Below, piece by piece: positions 17,504 to 31,059 of a stretch of 44,077 nt of DNA (the stretch's first letter is position 1; every line of letters starts with the position of its first letter). The DNA is taken from assembly GCA_944322945.1 (NCBI GenBank), contig CALUQN010000022.1, positions 1-44,077 on the forward strand, given 5' to 3'. The position numbers and the translations under genes are program-made. The notes beneath the pieces are model-generated. The model did no database searches, was not told the DNA's origin, and saw only the letters and a program-made list of their open reading frames with translations. This DNA is from Candidatus Gastranaerophilales bacterium. Its GTDB lineage: Bacteria > Cyanobacteriota > Vampirovibrionia > Gastranaerophilales > Gastranaerophilaceae.

Positions 17504-17609
17504 ACTATACAAAACCATTCCTGAAGTATATTTTAACATATAAAAAATGTTTTGACAATAAAAATTCATTATGGATAATAATATATAGGAATTGACAATT
17601 AAAGAACAT

Positions 17610-17690
17610 GTCGGAGTGGTGGAATGGTAGACACGTACGTTTCAGGTGCGTATGGAGAAATCTGTGTGGGTTCAAGTCCCATCTCCGACA
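17610..17690 (+). tRNA. tRNA-Leu (CAG), integration target
   Basis: Class II cloverleaf: acceptor GTCGGAG pairs with CTCCGAC, a leucine-type D arm (GTGGTGGAATGGTAGACAC), anticodon loop TTCAGGT giving CAG, a long variable arm and T arm GGGTTCAAGTCCC. The discriminator is A and no CCA is encoded. The gene remains intact, but its last 19 bases also encode the end of the serine recombinase on the other strand. Confidence 0.95.
17672..17690. other. Predicted left attachment site at the tRNA-Leu 3' end
   Basis: The recombinase stop codon (minus-strand TGA, 17672-17674) and its last codons (LNVGDGT) lie inside the T arm and acceptor of tRNA-Leu. Integrases commonly sit beside their attachment site, and tRNA 3' ends are frequent targets, so the crossover should lie in or next to this segment. 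I searched to about 31.3 kb for a second copy of the tRNA end and saw none. Serine recombinases can leave cores of only a few bases, so the exact site stays unresolved. Confidence 0.6.
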
Positions 17691-19372
17691 TTTAACTTTT
17701 TAGAGCCTTTATGAATAGGCTCTATTTTAGTATTTAAGTCACTTTGGCGGGTTCCAATCACTGCAATATTGCTTAAATCTAATCGATTATTTTCAAGAGC
17801 CTGTTTTGCACTTCCTGAGCGAGTTTTAAGGGTTCCTGTCAATGTTTCTAGCTCTTCTTTAAACTCCTGCTTCTGTTTGAGTTTTAACTGTCTCAAATGT
17901 TCAAATACAGGTCTTAACTTAACTGACAGAGTGTTATCATCTTCATTATAGGTAATACTTTCAATTATAGTATTGAGTATTAACCTTTTCTCATCCAAAG
18001 TTGCTTTCAAATAAAGTTCAGGAAGACGGTTGGCAAAATCAATCAGAATACTTATTCGTTTCACGGTATCTTTAGAATTTTCAGTGAGATTGTCAATCTC
18101 ACGTTTTATATCGTCTTTACGGGCTACCAGTTTCTGTAACACCTCAGCACGTGTGGATTCACTAATGCCTAGTTTATCAGTATTCTTCTGAGTTAACTTT
18201 TCAGTAATGTCATCTACTATCTGGTCATATGCTTTCTTTAAATCATCAATAGACTTATGTTCATATTGTTTCAGGTCTGTAATAGCGTTATTTATCTGCT
18301 TCTTTATACATTTTATCTCTTTTTCTGTAATATCAAAGCTGTCAATTACTTCCTGTATTGCTTCATCTATCAGATTTTCGTTAATATTCTTTTCTCTAGC
18401 ATGAGCTTTCGTGTAGTTAGTACAGTGGTAATAAATATATGTACCACTATTGTGTTCACCTCGCTTAGTTACGGCTACCATTGAGTAACCGCATTTCGCA
18501 CATTTAATAAAGTTTGAATATGTGTAAACGAGTCCTTTAGGTCTTTTTACATCCTCACCTTTTAACAAGAGTTGAACTCTGTAGAACAATTCTTCTGACA
18601 CAATCGGTTCGTGTACACCATCAAAAATATCATCGCCATGGGTAACTTTTCCGATGTATACGGGGTTCTTGAGAATATCTTGAATGCGCTTCTTTGAGTA
18701 TGGGTTTCCTTTACTGTCAACAAACCCATATTTAGCAAGTTCTTTACCTAACTTTTCGTATGCAAATACTCCTGTTCCATACAGTTCAAAACAACGCTTG
18801 ATATGAGGAGTCTTATCTGGGTCTGGTTTAATTATACCATGTCGGTGTTCATCTCTTGTATTGATATACCCTATCGGAGCTTTACCGAGTTTGTATCCCT
18901 TTTCAGCTCGGTTTCTTAATACTGAACTTGTCCTATCCTTAATATTGTCAAGCTCATCCTCTGCCTGCCCGATATAAACTCCTATAAGAACTTTTTTTAC
19001 CTTACTTATATCGTCAAAGTTTTCCATGATACTTGCAATAGTACAACCGTATTTCTTGATGGGTTTTAATATCTCAGCGAAAAAATCTTCAAGGCAACGA
19101 GAGAGTCTGTCCAGTTTCCATACAACAACATAGGCAACTTCGTTACGGTGTTCCTTTACGTATTTAAGCATTGCTCTAAGTCCTTTTCTGTTAGTATTAG
19201 AGCCTGTTTTCCCTGCGTCTTCAAAGTAAACAAATGTATAACCATCTTTGGTTGCTTTTTGTTCACATTGTTCTCGCTGCATGTTAAGACTAAGCCCACT
19301 GTTAGCCTGCTCAGCAGAACTTACTCTGCCGTAGCCTACAACGATTTTTTTTGTGTTACTTTGTTTGGTCAT
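17672..19372 (-). CDS. Large serine recombinase (integrase)
   Basis: This 566-aa site-specific recombinase should integrate and excise the element. The N-terminal resolvase domain (about 8-160) has the catalytic serine in GYGRVSSAEQ (Ser18) and the arginine-bearing VVWKLDRLSR. The recombinase domain (about 175-290) contains GKAPIGYINTRD and the NPVYIGKV signature. The zinc-ribbon region shows CAKCGYSM and YYHCTN, but the expected fourth cysteine is not evident. A long coiled coil follows (about 345-430). The start is ATG at 19372 with AAGGAG upstream. The last residues KLNVGDGT are encoded by the tRNA-Leu 3' end, so integration may have fixed the present C-terminus. It overlaps the 59-codon gene upstream and is probably co-expressed with the Rep-like gene. 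Confidence 0.93.
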   Translation of the reverse strand: MTKQSNTKKIVVGYGRVSSAEQANSGLSLNMQREQCEQKATKDGYTFVYFEDAGKTGSNTNRKGLRAMLKYVKEHRNEVAYVVVWKLDRLSRCLEDFFAEILKPIKKYGCTIASIMENFDDISKVKKVLIGVYIGQAEDELDNIKDRTSSVLRNRAEKGYKLGKAPIGYINTRDEHRHGIIKPDPDKTPHIKRCFELYGTGVFAYEKLGKELAKYGFVDSKGNPYSKKRIQDILKNPVYIGKVTHGDDIFDGVHEPIVSEELFYRVQLLLKGEDVKRPKGLVYTYSNFIKCAKCGYSMVAVTKRGEHNSGTYIYYHCTNYTKAHAREKNINENLIDEAIQEVIDSFDITEKEIKCIKKQINNAITDLKQYEHKSIDDLKKAYDQIVDDITEKLTQKNTDKLGISESTRAEVLQKLVARKDDIKREIDNLTENSKDTVKRISILIDFANRLPELYLKATLDEKRLILNTIIESITYNEDDNTLSVKLRPVFEHLRQLKLKQKQEFKEELETLTGTLKTRSGSAKQALENNRLDLSNIAVIGTRQSDLNTKIEPIHKGSKKLNVGDGT

Positions 19373-23762: not shown

Positions 23763-24371
23763 ATGGCAACACACGCATTTATTAGAGTAAGTACATTAGA
23801 GCAGGACACAGAGAAAAATAAGATTGATATACTACAATTCGCTAACCGTCTAAAACTCGGCAATGTTGAATTTACTGAGGAACAGTGTAGCGGTCGTATT
23901 AACTATAAGGAGCGTAAATTAGGAGCGTTGCTTGAGTCCATGCAAGCAGGTGATGTGTTGATTGTTCCTGAGCTTTCAAGGATAGCAAGGTCAATTACAC
24001 AAATACTGGAAGTTATAAAGGTTACTAAAGACAAGGGCATAACACTTTATTCACTTAAAGAAAACTTTAGTAACAATGAAGACTCAATCTCTGCAACGGT
24101 TACAAGCACAATCTTTGCTCTAGTTGCACAGATTGAAAGAGAACTAATAAGTATGAGAACAAAAGAGGCTCTCCATGCCAGAAAGATTGCAGGAGTAAAA
24201 CTCGGACGTCCAAAGGGTAAGGGTAAATCCAAACTGGATGAACATAAAGAGGATATTTTAAAGTTATTATCACTAAAAGTACCTAAAACAATGATTGCTA
24301 GACAGTTCAGGTGTTCTATCGGTAATCTCAATAATTTTCTTAAACGTTTAGAAGAAACTGTTTTAGGTTAA
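23763..24371 (+). CDS. Small serine recombinase (resolvase/invertase family)
   Basis: 202 aa, the usual length for a resolvase or invertase. The N-terminal catalytic domain has the nucleophile in AFIRVSTLEQD (Ser10), the conserved LIVPELSRIAR, and the long E-helix around ALVAQIERELISMRTKEAL. The hinge GVKLGRPKGK leads to a C-terminal helix-turn-helix (about 160-200, LLSLKVPKTMIARQFRCSIGNLNNFLKRL). Likely roles are dimer resolution or DNA inversion within the element. The ATG has AAAGGA upstream. Last gene of the rightward operon; its end overlaps the convergent DUF488-partner gene by nine bases. No paired recombination sites were located. Confidence 0.92.
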   Translation: MATHAFIRVSTLEQDTEKNKIDILQFANRLKLGNVEFTEEQCSGRINYKERKLGALLESMQAGDVLIVPELSRIARSITQILEVIKVTKDKGITLYSLKENFSNNEDSISATVTSTIFALVAQIERELISMRTKEALHARKIAGVKLGRPKGKGKSKLDEHKEDILKLLSLKVPKTMIARQFRCSIGNLNNFLKRLEETVLG

Positions 24372-25205
24372 ATTTAATTTCATCTGAGTTTCATATTTAG
24401 GATAAAATACACCGATAATTAAGAATGGATTTGGAGCAACATTATGCCACCTTTGAGTTGTTCCCATAAAGAAATAAAGGTCTTTATTGTTGATGAAATC
24501 GTCTTTATACTTTTCAGCAACCTTTTCTAATGCTTTATCTTCACTACCATAAGTATTTAGACAGTTCCAATACAACTGACCAATTTCCCAATCTTCTATC
24601 ATTAGAGTTGCTTCTCTGCCCTCAATATCTTCAAACTTATATGAGAACTTATAAGGAAGTTTCTTAACAATCTCAAATAAATCCTCACAGTTATCTTTGT
24701 AGGATTCAAATAAGGATAGTTGAGCTCTTTGGTTTAATATCTTCTCAATCTTTTTCTCATCATATTCACTGCTTGTCGACTCTATAATAAAATCTAAGAC
24801 CTTAGTCGGTTTAAATACTGCTAATGATTTACCAATACTAGGGTCTTTAGCTTCTTTAATCAGGGTTGTAAGATTAGTATAATACCCTTTCTTGAATACA
24901 ATGTCTTTTCGTTCTTGCCAGTTATTATCAGTATTCAATTTGTTTAACGGTTTAATATTCTGAAATAACCTATCAGTCGGAGTATAACTTTCTGGTCTAA
25001 AATCTCCAGTGTACTTTTCCAAGTCCAATTCTATCCATTGATACTTAGCATATTGCTTATCATAATCAAGTTTTCTAAATGGTATAGGAAATATCCTTAT
25101 CATAGACCCGTCTTCAAGAAAACCTGCAGTGCAAACAAGCTCATCATACTTAGAAGAGATATTAGGATAAGTTTTAACCGTAATTAAGACTTTAGTTTTA
25201 GTCAT
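24363..25205 (-). CDS. DUF488-associated partner protein, 280 aa
   Basis: I cannot name this family. It starts MTKTKVLITVKTYPNISSKYDELVCTAGFLEDGSMIRIFPIPFRKLD, a compact beta-rich domain to about residue 75, then a helical middle, and a C-terminal domain (about 190-280) with EDWEIGQLYWNCLNTYG and LYFFMGTTQRWHNVAPNPFLIIGVFYPK. One Cys (VCTAG) lies in the N-terminal domain. There is no membrane segment. The ATG lies one base after the upstream stop (TAGTATG), so it is translationally coupled to the DUF488 gene and the two products probably act together. It sits beside the restriction enzyme gene in the element. A role in DNA or nucleotide modification or defence is inferred from context only. 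Confidence 0.7.
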   Translation of the reverse strand: MTKTKVLITVKTYPNISSKYDELVCTAGFLEDGSMIRIFPIPFRKLDYDKQYAKYQWIELDLEKYTGDFRPESYTPTDRLFQNIKPLNKLNTDNNWQERKDIVFKKGYYTNLTTLIKEAKDPSIGKSLAVFKPTKVLDFIIESTSSEYDEKKIEKILNQRAQLSLFESYKDNCEDLFEIVKKLPYKFSYKFEDIEGREATLMIEDWEIGQLYWNCLNTYGSEDKALEKVAEKYKDDFINNKDLYFFMGTTQRWHNVAPNPFLIIGVFYPKYETQMKLNLT

Positions 25206-25206
25206 A

Positions 25207-26106
25207 CTATAACTCTATTACACTTGTATCACTTTGTAAAAGGTTTACTATATAATCTTTTATTCGTGTTCTATGGCATTTATTAACATCCATTTCAAAG
25301 CAGGTAAGTGCTATTCGCTTGTATTTATCCATATAATTAAGGATTTCACGTAAATAACTTTCTTTGCTTGGAAGTGTTGTTTCATACTCATCAAATAATG
25401 CTCTATAGTCTTCCATTGTTTCAAGTTTCTTTCGTTTCTCTGTTATAATACCTAATTCTGGGATATGGACATATTTTATCCCCATTTTATTTACAACGGA
25501 AGCTAATATGCTTTTAGAAAACCCGTATTTATGACTGAATGGATTTTTTCTTACATCAATTAATACCTTAATATTATTCTGTATTAATTTGTTAATATAT
25601 GCTTCAAAAGAAATACCCTCATATCCTATAGTAAATAATGCCGGTGATTCATCATTTAAACTGTAATTGTCTTCAATGTATTTTTCAATTTCAGCCTGTT
25701 CTTCTTTAGAAAGCATTTCATCTTTTATTGTGCTATGGATTGTGTAGTAAGGATAGTCTAAATATACCTGTCTTACAAGTTCTCGTTGACTTAAATGCTT
25801 ATAATTTCTCCTGATTTTATATAGAATTAATCTATCTTCATTAGTAAGCATATCTTTATACGACTTCTTAACTGGTGATAAATTCCATTCTTCATTGAGA
25901 TATATTAGTTTATCTTTTTGCAAGTGTTCTAGGTCTTTACTTGCCTGAAAAGAAAAACAACCAAAGTTGTACGGTATAAAATCATAAGAAGACTCATTCT
26001 GCATTCGTGTGAAAAGAAACAGATATTTTTGTAATTGAGTCCTACTCAATATATTATTAAACTCCTCTAGTATTGAGAGGATTATTTTTTCCCTGTAGTA
26101 TAGCAT
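25207..26106 (-). CDS. DUF488 protein with Panacea/DUF4065-like N-terminal domain
   Basis: 299 aa in two domains. Residues 1-150 (SILEEFNNILSRTQLQKYLFLFTRM, DFIPYNFGCFSFQASKDLEHLQKDKLIYL) resemble the winged-helix Panacea/DUF4065 family used as antitoxins and sensors in defence systems. Residues 156-290 are DUF488: FTIGYEGISFEAYINKL, LIDVRKNPFSHKYGFSK, the GIKYVHIPELG strand and CFEMDVNKCHRTRIKDYI with the conserved Cys and CHR motif. DUF488 has been linked by comparative genomics to base-modification and phage-resistance operons, but its chemistry is not settled. It is promoter-proximal to its partner gene (one base apart). The leftward pair lies directly downstream of the restriction enzyme gene, 83 bases away. 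Confidence 0.75.
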   Translation of the reverse strand: MLYYREKIILSILEEFNNILSRTQLQKYLFLFTRMQNESSYDFIPYNFGCFSFQASKDLEHLQKDKLIYLNEEWNLSPVKKSYKDMLTNEDRLILYKIRRNYKHLSQRELVRQVYLDYPYYTIHSTIKDEMLSKEEQAEIEKYIEDNYSLNDESPALFTIGYEGISFEAYINKLIQNNIKVLIDVRKNPFSHKYGFSKSILASVVNKMGIKYVHIPELGIITEKRKKLETMEDYRALFDEYETTLPSKESYLREILNYMDKYKRIALTCFEMDVNKCHRTRIKDYIVNLLQSDTSVIEL

Positions 26107-26189
26107 ACTTACAATCTTATTACATTCCTTGCTATAACACTATAATACAAATACTTTAAATATACTACTTACGTACTTCATTTATACGA

Positions 26190-29100
26190 TTAAATTAGTA
26201 TAACTTCATCAATCTGTTGCATGAGGGTGTGGGTTTCTAAGAGGGCTTTTATGATTTTCTGGTAGTGCATAACCTCTTCATAGCTTAGGATTCTACCTTT
26301 GCGGTCTTTGAGCCATTTTTGTGCTGGCTGATAACCGCCTATATAGAAATTCCATGCAATTTCAGGCACATTATCAAAATACTGGGTCTTATTGATATAC
26401 ACCTTGTTGTCTTTGTATTCAGGCTTTACAACCTCATTATCACCGCCTACAGGATATGAGGTTACAAATTCATTTACTATAGGAGACTCAAGCAGGTGTA
26501 TCTCTCTAAGCTGTTTACCAAGTTCTGCGATTTTAAAGAAATAATCCGAACTTTCAGGGTATGGGATACGTGGAAAATCAATCTTTAAGAACTCCTTGTA
26601 CTTGTTTCTATACTTGTTAGAATGCAGAACACCATAAATATAGTCCAATATATCAATCGGAGCAAAAGTTCCTGCCTTCGCTTCTTTTTCCGGCGTAAAT
26701 GTTAAATTAAGTTTTTGTTCCAATTCCCTCACAATATCCATATTCAGATTGGGTTTACTACTCCGGTCAAAGAATGAGGTTTGTTCTGAATCATCATATA
26801 AGTATAAAGGTATAGAATAGGTGATTTCACTGGTTTTATTTGAAACCAAACTACTCTCCACTAAGTTTTTAGATACAAAAACATGTTGATATTTATCAAA
26901 AGCTTTAACTTGTTTACATAAGTTAAGTCCAATGTTTTCATGCAGATAGTGTTTCATTACATCTTTTCTTGGCATACAGTGAAAACCTTTAGACTTTCCT
27001 GTAAAATAAGTATACTTAGTATCAAAAGGTCTATAATCTATTTTAGCAATATTCTTATTATCGAGCTTGGATGATATTAAGTCTTTCTGTGCTAAGTCTA
27101 CTTTCCAATCTCTTACGTCCTTTCCTAAGTGGTACTCATTTCTTGCCTCTTCTGGATTTAGTCTTATAAAATTATGGATTGTTCTCTGCACATCTTCTAT
27201 AGAATCTTTTATACAGAATGCGTCTCTTGCTGTTACTATACCAACAGAATTAACAGGAAATAAGTCTGTGATATTAAAGCCACTATCAAACTTTAACTTT
27301 AAGCTGAAATCTTTAGGCGTAAATAAATAATACGGACTAATTGGTTCTATAGGTTTAAAATCAATATCATTTAAGTTGTTATTAACGAGGTACTCATATT
27401 TAGAATTTCTTAAGCCTTGAATATCTATATGATAAACTTTTGCAAGCTCATCAGTTTTTTTCTTGCCTGTTTTAACAAAGATATTTATACTTACACCCTG
27501 TTGAATATTAAATACATTTTCATCTTTCGTTCCGTCTGAACAAGTCTCTTTACGCTTTGCATTACCATGTAAGTCGAGAATGTATATTTTATCAAAAGAT
27601 TTGAGTAAACTATATCTCATTCCCCTAAAGGTAGGATTGTCTAAATATGCATGATTATTTATAAAAGCAACAATTCCCTCTTTATTCTTATCAACATAAC
27701 TTTGAGCAAGTCTAATAAACTTAACATAATCATCATTAATCCATTTCGGATTTTTCTCCTTAAGTTTTTCTCCATTAGCTTCTTTTTTGTACACATCAAG
27801 TTCATCATTAAACAAACTTCCATTTGCTGATTCCCCACTATAAGGCGGATTACCCAGCACTACCATTATAGGCTTTTCAGACTTTATCATGCCGGCATAT
27901 CTGGCTTCATCAGATAACCAATCAAACAACGGATATTTTGTCGTTTCGTCTTTTTCAAGAGCGTTAGTCAGATATACATTAAACCTGTTGGTCTGTTTGG
28001 TTGTTGTATAGCCTGTTTCCCTTAGAAGCAGGTCAAGTTTAAGATGACACATTACATAAGGTGTCATCATTATTTCAAAACCGTTTAATCTTGGTATCAG
28101 AGCATTATCAACATACTGAGACCATATCCCCTGCTGGTTTACGAAATAGGAATATATTTTGCGGATTGTTTCAGCTAAAAATGTTCCCGTACCTGTTGCA
28201 GGGTCAAGGATTTGAACTTTATACACATTTTCATCAGTTGTAACCGGTACATCTTCATACACAACTTCACCCTTAACTTTCTTCTTCTTTTTCTCATAAT
28301 AAAGAGTGCGTGTGTGTTTTATAGTTGTATCATCAGCCAGTCCATGAGACAGGTTGAACTCTGTTTTAAGAATGCTGTCCACCGCTGAGACAATAAACTT
28401 CACAACAGGCTGAGGTGTATAATATACGCCTCTCTTTTCCTTGTTTACTTTGTCGTAGCTTTCAAGGAATGTTTCATAAAAATGCAGAAACGGGTCAGAC
28501 ATCTGAGTCGTTCTACCGTAGTTCTTCAAGAGTTTATTCAGGTCAACTGCTCTAAAGATTTCAACCAAATCATCGACAATCCATACAAGGTTATCATCAA
28601 GGTTTGCACCGGATATATAATCAAACAACTGCCTTAGAAACGGATTATTCTTTGATACAAGTTCTCTTGCTTCCTGTCTTGTGAAGTCATCAAGTGTAGT
28701 ATCATTCAGTCTTGCAACAAATAAGCCGTATGCTATCGTTTGAGCGTACATATCTGCAAAGGTGTGGTCGGTTAAATCGTGTAACAGGATTTGCTTAAAA
28801 GCATTTCTCTGGCTTGCTAAAGAGCCTGCACAATCACATTCAAGAGCGTTTATAATAACATCACGTATCATAACCGCCTTTTGTGCCATAAGGTTTGCAA
28901 GCTGTTTAGGTGATTTAATAGTCTGCCCCTGATAATCACAGAAATTGCGGATGTGGTCAATCAGTTTCTGATACTCTTTCTCATAAACTTTAATCTTGCC
29001 GTTTATAATATCAGCAACTTTAACGGTATCAACGTGTTCACCATTCACAAAGAAACGAAATTCAAGGTAGTTAGTCAATATCAAGTTATCAAGGCTTGCT

Positions 29101-29363
29101 CTGTATCTATCAAGTTGTTCAGACTTTTCAACGACATCAAGGTTTTTGTCTATGTCTTTAGCTTCAATGTATCCTATAGGAATGTTCTTTTTCTGTATTA
29201 TATAATCAGGAGCACCGCATTTTTGTCTGGTAGGTTCATTGATAGCCTGAACACCTACAACGGTTCTTTCAACAAAGTCCTGTAAGTCACCCCTAAAGCT
29301 GTGTTCTGTAGTCTTTCCAGTCTTAAACTTTCTGATAATTCCATCAAGATACTTCTCTGTCAT
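26190..29363 (-). CDS. Single-chain type ISP-like restriction-methylation enzyme without helicase
   Basis: 1057 aa. The N-terminal nuclease domain (about 1-140) has the PD-(D/E)xK site in APDYIIQKKNIPIGYIEAKD (Asp53, Glu67, Lys69). A helical connector (150-310) leads to YYTPQPVVKFIV. The gamma N6-adenine methyltransferase follows, with motif I DPATGTGTF (387-395) and catalytic NPPY (505-508). The C-terminal part (about 690-1057) is a specificity region; its end (NFYIGGYQPAQKWLKDRKG, then ALLETHTLMQQIDEV) matches the LlaBIII-type C-terminal domain. LlaGI/LlaBIII proteins are about 1,570 aa with an SF2 helicase between nuclease and methylase. This one lacks the helicase, so it should cut near its site (type IIG-like) rather than translocate. 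Methylation and cleavage lie in one chain, and no separate methylase or S gene is present. All key catalytic residues are intact. Confidence 0.88.
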   Translation of the reverse strand: MTEKYLDGIIRKFKTGKTTEHSFRGDLQDFVERTVVGVQAINEPTRQKCGAPDYIIQKKNIPIGYIEAKDIDKNLDVVEKSEQLDRYRASLDNLILTNYLEFRFFVNGEHVDTVKVADIINGKIKVYEKEYQKLIDHIRNFCDYQGQTIKSPKQLANLMAQKAVMIRDVIINALECDCAGSLASQRNAFKQILLHDLTDHTFADMYAQTIAYGLFVARLNDTTLDDFTRQEARELVSKNNPFLRQLFDYISGANLDDNLVWIVDDLVEIFRAVDLNKLLKNYGRTTQMSDPFLHFYETFLESYDKVNKEKRGVYYTPQPVVKFIVSAVDSILKTEFNLSHGLADDTTIKHTRTLYYEKKKKKVKGEVVYEDVPVTTDENVYKVQILDPATGTGTFLAETIRKIYSYFVNQQGIWSQYVDNALIPRLNGFEIMMTPYVMCHLKLDLLLRETGYTTTKQTNRFNVYLTNALEKDETTKYPLFDWLSDEARYAGMIKSEKPIMVVLGNPPYSGESANGSLFNDELDVYKKEANGEKLKEKNPKWINDDYVKFIRLAQSYVDKNKEGIVAFINNHAYLDNPTFRGMRYSLLKSFDKIYILDLHGNAKRKETCSDGTKDENVFNIQQGVSINIFVKTGKKKTDELAKVYHIDIQGLRNSKYEYLVNNNLNDIDFKPIEPISPYYLFTPKDFSLKLKFDSGFNITDLFPVNSVGIVTARDAFCIKDSIEDVQRTIHNFIRLNPEEARNEYHLGKDVRDWKVDLAQKDLISSKLDNKNIAKIDYRPFDTKYTYFTGKSKGFHCMPRKDVMKHYLHENIGLNLCKQVKAFDKYQHVFVSKNLVESSLVSNKTSEITYSIPLYLYDDSEQTSFFDRSSKPNLNMDIVRELEQKLNLTFTPEKEAKAGTFAPIDILDYIYGVLHSNKYRNKYKEFLKIDFPRIPYPESSDYFFKIAELGKQLREIHLLESPIVNEFVTSYPVGGDNEVVKPEYKDNKVYINKTQYFDNVPEIAWNFYIGGYQPAQKWLKDRKGRILSYEEVMHYQKIIKALLETHTLMQQIDEVILI

Positions 29364-30720: not shown

Positions 30721-31059
30721 TTACTCATCCATATGTTTCAATATATCTAAATAAACTTCCTCTATATTGTTATCAATATCATTATTCCAAAAACGAATTA
30801 CTTTATAAGCTTTACTCTCAAGGTACTTTGTTCTTTCCTGGTCGTAGGTTATGTTTTTATTTTCGTTATGTTGTCCTCCGTCAATTTCTATGATTAATTT
30901 CTTTTCATTACAAATAAAGTCAACTATATAATTTCCAATAGGATATTGTCGTCTAAATTTAAGATTATTAATGTTTTTCTTTCTTAGAAATGTCCAGAGT
31001 ATTCTTTCTTGTTTTGTCATATTTTTTCTAAGAATTCTTGCTTTTTCTGTAGTATTCAT
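30721..31059 (-). CDS. DUF559 endonuclease-domain protein, 112 aa
   Basis: This is a compact member of the DUF559 family, a PD-(D/E)xK-type fold related to very-short-patch-repair endonucleases. Motifs seen are RKNMTKQERILWTFLRKKNINNLKFRRQYPIGNYIVDFIC, KKLIIEIDGGQH (acidic catalytic strand, Glu and Asp) and YKVIRFWNNDI at the C-terminus. The length is normal. The ATG at 31059 follows a T-rich leader with little ribosome binding site. The gene is bracketed by two copies of a double-palindrome repeat (30619-30701 and 31076-31177), an arrangement reminiscent of REP-associated proteins. The enzymatic role is not established for the family. Confidence 0.88.
   Translation of the reverse strand: MNTTEKARILRKNMTKQERILWTFLRKKNINNLKFRRQYPIGNYIVDFICNEKKLIIEIDGGQHNENKNITYDQERTKYLESKAYKVIRFWNNDIDNNIEEVYLDILKHMDE

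Follow-up and report, generated by a model that had tools for sequence, protein, structure and literature searches.

A gene for a DUF488 domain and a gene for a predicted tandem OB-fold protein, here called B, make a fixed two-gene element, which has a patchy and mobile distribution in bacteria, archaeal plasmids and phages. The window, that is, the whole stretch of 44,077 nucleotides analysed from a Candidatus Gastranaerophilales bacterium, carries a version of the element in which DUF488 follows a Panacea-like domain in the same protein (A). We tentatively favour, at somewhat less than an even chance, the view that A and B are a self-contained pair working like a replication-targeting toxin-antitoxin, possibly in abortive phage defence. 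The DUF488 gene directly adjoins or overlaps the B gene at 123 of 125 loci, the remaining two being contig-end fragments. The proposal, made in the sequence-only reading, that A has a fixed partner is thus upheld. In the first 96 loci surveyed A was found beside B in 95, and the exception (L014) begins inside B at a contig end. Evolutionary distances of DUF488 and B are correlated (Mantel r 0.69; none of 2000 permutations as high), and in Spirochaetota A and B mark the identical set of genomes (21/198). A and B are a tight two-gene unit, often on mobile elements, as toxin-antitoxin systems are. In the window the pair is found among the following features.

23763..24371, plus strand: small serine recombinase (Mpi-like), convergent with the B gene (Resolvase, E 6.2e-27)
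24363..25205, minus strand: B, 280 aa, open reading frame for the protein with two predicted OB folds in tandem (PADLOC PDC-M19B, PHROG 25907), and predicted to be the clamp-binding component
25203..25209, minus strand: A-B junction in the sequence, TAG-T-ATG, with 1-base spacing (base 25206)
25207..26106, minus strand: A, 299 aa, open reading frame for the Panacea-like plus DUF488 protein (PADLOC PDC-M19A, PHROG 14939), predicted antitoxin or enzyme component
26107..26189, minus strand: region of 83 bases upstream of A, with a conserved block in the alignment with loci L017 and L018, probable promoter of the pair
26190..29363, minus strand: ISP-type/type IIG single-chain restriction-modification enzyme, 1057 aa, a neighbour without conserved partnership

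The three leftward reading frames, their coordinates, the gaps of 83 bases and 1 base and the TAG-T-ATG junction had all been read exactly from the sequence. The 1-base spacing between A and B is the most frequent value (26 of the 86 loci measured). The locus had also been placed within an integrated element, and this is correct: the region belongs to an island that encodes large and small serine recombinases and is partly common to a sister genome (L017). The small recombinase matches NCBIfam PRK13413.1 at E 2e-47, under the cut-off of that model. The sister genome features the same recombinase backbone and the pair (88% and 91% identical), and the gene for the ISP-type enzyme is absent. At the other side of B, adjoining the same recombinase, it hosts a different 4.1-kb cargo of zinc-ribbon and TPR proteins (L017, 10833-14940), so that cargo was evidently swapped on both flanks of the pair. 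The closest homologue of B (91% identity) comes from Candidatus Gastranaerophilales, and B is present in only 2 of 99 related genomes, that of the window included, which fits the expectation for a module gained by horizontal transfer. A tRNA-Leu(cag) gene overlaps, on the opposite strand, the 3' end of the large serine recombinase gene (window 17609-19372), and is a possible attachment site of the island. A gene for a DUF559 (Vsr/MTES_1575-like) nuclease resides upstream of the ISP-type enzyme (window 30721-31059).

The ISP-type enzyme was correctly recognized as such from the sequence. It has an intact PD-(x)n-ExK nuclease motif (residues 52-69), methylase motifs I (DPATGTGTFL, at 387) and IV (NPPY, at 505) and a Type_ISP_C domain, no helicase domain was matched in it by Pfam, and PADLOC models match it as type IIG. 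It had been viewed as forming one unit with A and B, which holds for the last two genes only, as the enzyme is missing from homologous loci. Homologues were sought at 95 other loci, with flanks of varying length, and at 94 no match was found; the sole match outside the window is a distant methylase at L054 (25% identity). Close relatives of the enzyme adjoin the pair in the window only. The 83-bp gap at the 5' side of A shares a conserved block with L017 and L018, both devoid of the ISP gene at that place; at L018 a PEP carboxykinase gene is upstream of the pair. Because the block persists in relatives lacking the ISP gene, the pair probably has its own promoter, although a scan for consensus promoters upstream of A found no site on the minus strand. 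The pair might still serve the adjoining enzyme as an accessory, be it modifier, sensor or guard, as the genes are codirectional and 83 bp apart, and restriction genes are over-represented beside the pair at other loci. Given the 94 of 95 loci without a match, the sister island without the gene and an upstream block independent of it, the enzyme is ruled out as partner, and the accessory reading, which we regard as very improbable, is largely refuted for this enzyme. The earlier suggestion that the pair guards the restriction enzyme fails likewise here; as a general idea it may hold, because 10 of 145 immediate neighbours, versus 1 of 96 outer genes, encode restriction endonucleases (p 0.028), a modest enrichment, relative to an imperfect control provided by the outer genes of the same loci.

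A and B are matched nearly over their full length by PADLOC profiles PDC-M19A (E 2.6e-105) and PDC-M19B (E 8.1e-117), as by PHROGs 14939 and 25907, two function-unassigned families. The module was therefore right to be called a defence candidate, and wrong to be called undescribed. The catalogue name already existed, and a literature search found no mention of PDC-M19 by name; PADLOC itself gives no domain, fold, motif or mechanism, and what is new here is the anatomy of the pair, in terms of folds and motifs. HsdR or type IIG genes have been confirmed beside the pair at seven loci (L031, L042, L043, L051, L058, L074, L085), and at L058, L074 and L085 they are located downstream of B, at gaps of 6 to 10 bases; the module is sometimes embedded in restriction operons. 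As the PADLOC listing implies, the pair could be an anti-phage system of another kind, made by a sensor and an effector, and not acting via the clamp. The model matches and the restriction neighbours agree with this view, and PDCs were proposed as defence systems through guilt-by-embedding, most of them lacking validation. On the other hand, the majority of the immediate neighbours are neither restriction nor other defence genes, the pair is present in phages as well, and the clamp-type motifs of B would be left without explanation. A system of this kind is considered unlikely.

B corresponds to no Pfam or NCBIfam family above cut-off; a housekeeping identity, for which it was checked, has been rejected on this ground. 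No solved structure related to B by sequence was found. The ARPP protein of ARG systems (conserved Cys, Gln) was set aside by description, as the described fold differs. The AlphaFold model of B (pLDDT 85, pTM 0.83) and the alignment of 119 full-length homologues, for which residue conservation is given below, sort the protein into the following parts.

24897..25205, minus strand: first predicted OB fold, B residues 1-103 (VIA-align Z 7.7 to an Oxytricha telomere-end binding protein, 85 residues, rmsd 2.9)
24390..24896, minus strand: second predicted OB fold, B residues 104-272, split by a disordered linker (VIA-align Z 7.3 to RMI1-RMI2 chain 9dhk_A, 114 residues, rmsd 3.5)
24708..24722, minus strand: internal clamp-type motif QLSLF, B residues 162-166 (Q162 in 114/119, L165 in 109/119, F166 in 113/119)
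24369..24386, minus strand: C-terminal clamp-type motif QMKLNL, a six-residue variant, B residues 274-279 (Q274 in 102/119, L277 in 103/119, F278 in 93/119)

The top fold matches are mostly OB nucleic-acid binders (Teb1, CST, Oxytricha telomere-end proteins, RPA, POT1, HIN-200). The second half of B matches also the RPA trimer core, and LEF-3 was matched in a viral structure library. Both halves match OB folds separately, with middling scores (Z at most 7.7, Foldseek E 2e-4), and two tandem OB folds are therefore likely, rather than proven.

The internal motif is set in a low-confidence linker (pLDDT about 54), and its columns are conserved amid gappy ones. It was found in 107 (strict F) to 111 (looser form) of the 119 homologues, and the C-terminal motif in 81 (five-residue form) to 95 (five- or six-residue form). 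Among 29 representatives sharing less than 60% identity, an internal Q..[LIM]F was seen in 26, the C-terminal motif in 18. Shuffled sequences feature the two motifs in about 1.5 and 0.3 of 119 cases, respectively, and the C-terminal motif occurs in 3/145 and 1/96 neighbouring proteins. The consensus for clamp binding is QL[S/D]LF (PMC3716654), and B thus has a conserved peptide of this type in an accessible segment, as clamp-binding proteins do. QLNLF, the most frequent internal form in B (24/119 homologues), is also the crystallised internal clamp motif of UmuC; B differs from UmuC and other clamp-binding proteins in being no polymerase, but a predicted tandem OB-fold protein. From these peptides we infer that B binds the sliding clamp DnaN.

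In the AlphaFold model of A (pLDDT 93, pTM 0.89) two domains are distinguished.

25657..26106, minus strand: A residues 1-150, Panacea/DarG C-terminal-domain-like fold (VIA-align Z 12.0 to DarG in DarTG 7yk3, 138 residues, rmsd 3.6)
25210..25656, minus strand: A residues 151-299, DUF488 domain (PF04343, E 9.8e-25; found in 48/48 homologues)
25270..25302, minus strand: putative active-site loop of DUF488, C269-x-E271...C277-H278-R279 (invariant in 41/41 representatives from bacteria, archaeal plasmids and phage)

The Panacea-like nature of the N-terminus, as first read from the sequence, is backed by the DarG fold match and by SocA_Panacea PF13274, which matched 20 of 48 A homologues weakly at E <= 0.1 (best E 6.5e-4); A of the window was itself unmatched by this profile at E <= 0.1. 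PF04343 scores 88 bits on A, versus a gathering score of 22.2. Fold matches of the C-terminal domain include tetrapyrrole methylases and phosphatases of the rhodanese-phosphatase type. Besides the loop residues, G161, Y162, D184, R186, Y212 and G219 are invariant in the 41 representatives. Burroughs and Aravind are said to have predicted DNA-end processing for the DUF488 clade, in a rhodanese-phosphatase survey of 2023.

DUF488 and B have been found in five gene arrangements.

Arrangement 1: Panacea-DUF488 then B (Bacteroidota, Spirochaetota, Gastranaerophilales)
Arrangement 2: B then Panacea-DUF488 (L025)
Arrangement 3: B then short DUF488 (cyanobacteria)
Arrangement 4: B and DUF488 convergent (Proteobacteria, Actinobacteria, Gordonia phages)
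Arrangement 5: DUF488 then B, including a ParB-DUF488 fusion (Sulfolobales plasmids for the fusion)

That the Panacea-DUF488 fusion is the constant part was considered and rejected: at other loci DUF488 stands alone or is joined to ParB, and the partnership with B persists. What stays constant is DUF488 together with B. In archaeal, phage and plasmid pairs, where DUF488 is stand-alone or ParB-fused, B matches the same M19B models, and DUF488 only the C-terminal half of the PDC-M19A model. In a quick tree of B nearly all Panacea forms cluster in one part (SH-aLRT 91), and the two odd members found there are cut by contig ends. The universality of DUF488, not of Panacea, and the convergent orders, unusual for toxin-antitoxin pairs, make a non-toxic complex the main rival explanation. 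A and B would form a clamp-docked complex for DNA processing or repair, in which B, itself not toxic, carries the DUF488 enzyme to replication forks or to the ends of DNA, and the enzyme removes or transfers a phosphate or a sugar there; mobile elements would carry the pair for their own replication, or to undo the modification of a rival. The putative active-site residues are invariant in 41 of 41 representatives with or without Panacea, pairing persists in convergent and reversed orders, unlike in most toxin-antitoxin pairs, and plasmid and phage copies are found near SSB, RadC, RecT or integrase genes. Moreover, related rhodanese-phosphatase domains have been argued in print to act on ADP-ribose-linked phosphates in virus-host conflict. 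We rate this complex as a serious rival, though less probable than the favoured view. Against it, decay is one-sided, with B lost and A kept, where similar rates of loss for the two genes would be expected of an obligate complex.

Decay was surveyed in 395 genomes from the phylum of Bacteroides stercorirosoris (G348, locus L080) and in 198 genomes from the phylum of a member of the Leptospiraceae (G349). In Bacteroidota all 22 full-length Panacea-DUF488 genes are open; 14 of them have an intact B, 6 a broken one (G488, G362 with its near-copy G367, G513, G743, G629), and for 2 (G651, G711) no B was found. In Spirochaetota B alone is broken in 4 genomes (G853, G919, G870, G785), both genes in one (G940). 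A broken A beside an intact B was found in none of the 395 and 198 genomes. As a whole, with A open, B is broken at 9 independent loci (10 genomes) and missing at 2 more. By a two-sided sign test, done by hand, p is 0.004 for 9 versus 0 and 0.001 for 11 versus 0; in Bacteroidota the test is post hoc, as it arose after an initial draw, itself included in the larger one, had shown four broken copies, and Spirochaetota, with 4 versus 0, are the only independent replicate, and a small one. Broken copies of B come in part from draft or metagenome assemblies; assembly errors should strike both genes alike. One-sided decay fits a costly B, and could also mean that A has a separate use.

In the favoured toxin-antitoxin-like pair, the OB folds of B would grip DNA and its peptides would hold the sliding clamp, so that replication is targeted. 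A would neutralise B via the Panacea-like domain, the DUF488 domain, or both. A contribution of DUF488 as an enzyme, by reversal or processing, as the DarG macrodomain does for DarT, is likely because DUF488 is the universal partner and its putative active-site residues are kept. A Panacea-like protein encoded beside a protein with clamp-type peptides recalls SocAB, the type VI system of Caulobacter crescentus, in which SocA, the Panacea antitoxin, hands SocB over to ClpXP, and SocB blocks replication by clamp binding via the usual motif. RipA, reported in 2025, is another clamp-targeting toxin. The likeness to SocAB is one of domain and motif. As differences, A also contains DUF488, and B has 280 aa, two predicted OB folds in tandem and two motifs. 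The likeness is limited to one clade, because many lineages lack the Panacea domain. PanAT units are similar in having a Panacea-like domain in a two-gene unit, and the clade of the window has A first, as most PanAT loci; they differ as the DUF488 fusion is clade-specific, and the partnership with B independent of Panacea. Like DarG, A combines an enzyme domain with a domain of binding or inhibitory type, and the N-terminal part of A is predicted to fold like the C-terminal domain of DarG. In contrast to DarTG, DUF488 replaces the macrodomain, the domain order is reversed, and the best fold matches of B are OB proteins, not DarT. Some caveats apply to the toxin-antitoxin-like reading. Fold matches of B are below Z 8, the C-terminal motif of the window is a variant, and convergent and B-first orders are unusual for pairs which need co-transcription.

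Two closely related archaeal B sequences, from Sulfolobales, feature QATLDQYI or QATLEQYI at the position of the internal motif. The resemblance to a PCNA box is only suggestive, and rests on two similar sequences, because further archaeal homologues, sought among viral contigs, were not found. A broader view is that of a clamp-guided module crossing domains, in which the tandem OB protein would ride the clamp, DUF488 would reverse or complete a novel modification of DNA ends by phosphate or sugar, and archaeal versions would have swapped the bacterial clamp motif for one of PCNA type; only a small chance is given to it. A widespread defence candidate devoid of a function, and DUF488, a common domain of unknown function, are provided here with a testable hypothesis at the level of mechanism. 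Very few known toxins act against the sliding clamp, and a clamp-binding protein tied to a partner with an enzyme domain, present in bacteria, archaeal plasmids and phages, would add one of a new build. If true, this might lead to a hitherto undescribed mechanism of replication arrest, or to novel chemistry at the ends of DNA.

In the Sulfolobales plasmids pSOG1 and pBEU9E1 (L099 and L117) the annotated ParB partition gene encodes a ParB-DUF488 fusion, and is directly upstream of B. An archaeal ParB-CTPase-DUF488-HTH fusion, described in a 2025 survey of ParB folds (PMC12704722), binds CTP. It joins DUF488 to a ParB fold as the plasmid proteins do, where the fusion adjoins B; the paper deals with CTP binding, and the passage on this fusion makes no mention of a B partner. 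In three plasmid pairs (L100, L114, L118) B and DUF488 overlap tail-to-tail, beside metal-resistance or transposase genes. In Gordonia phage Eviarto (L097, 4024-6271) B (gp43) overlaps gp44, which is annotated as an immunity repressor, and converges with the stand-alone DUF488 gene gp42, near the integrase. B was found also in six further Gordonia phage records.
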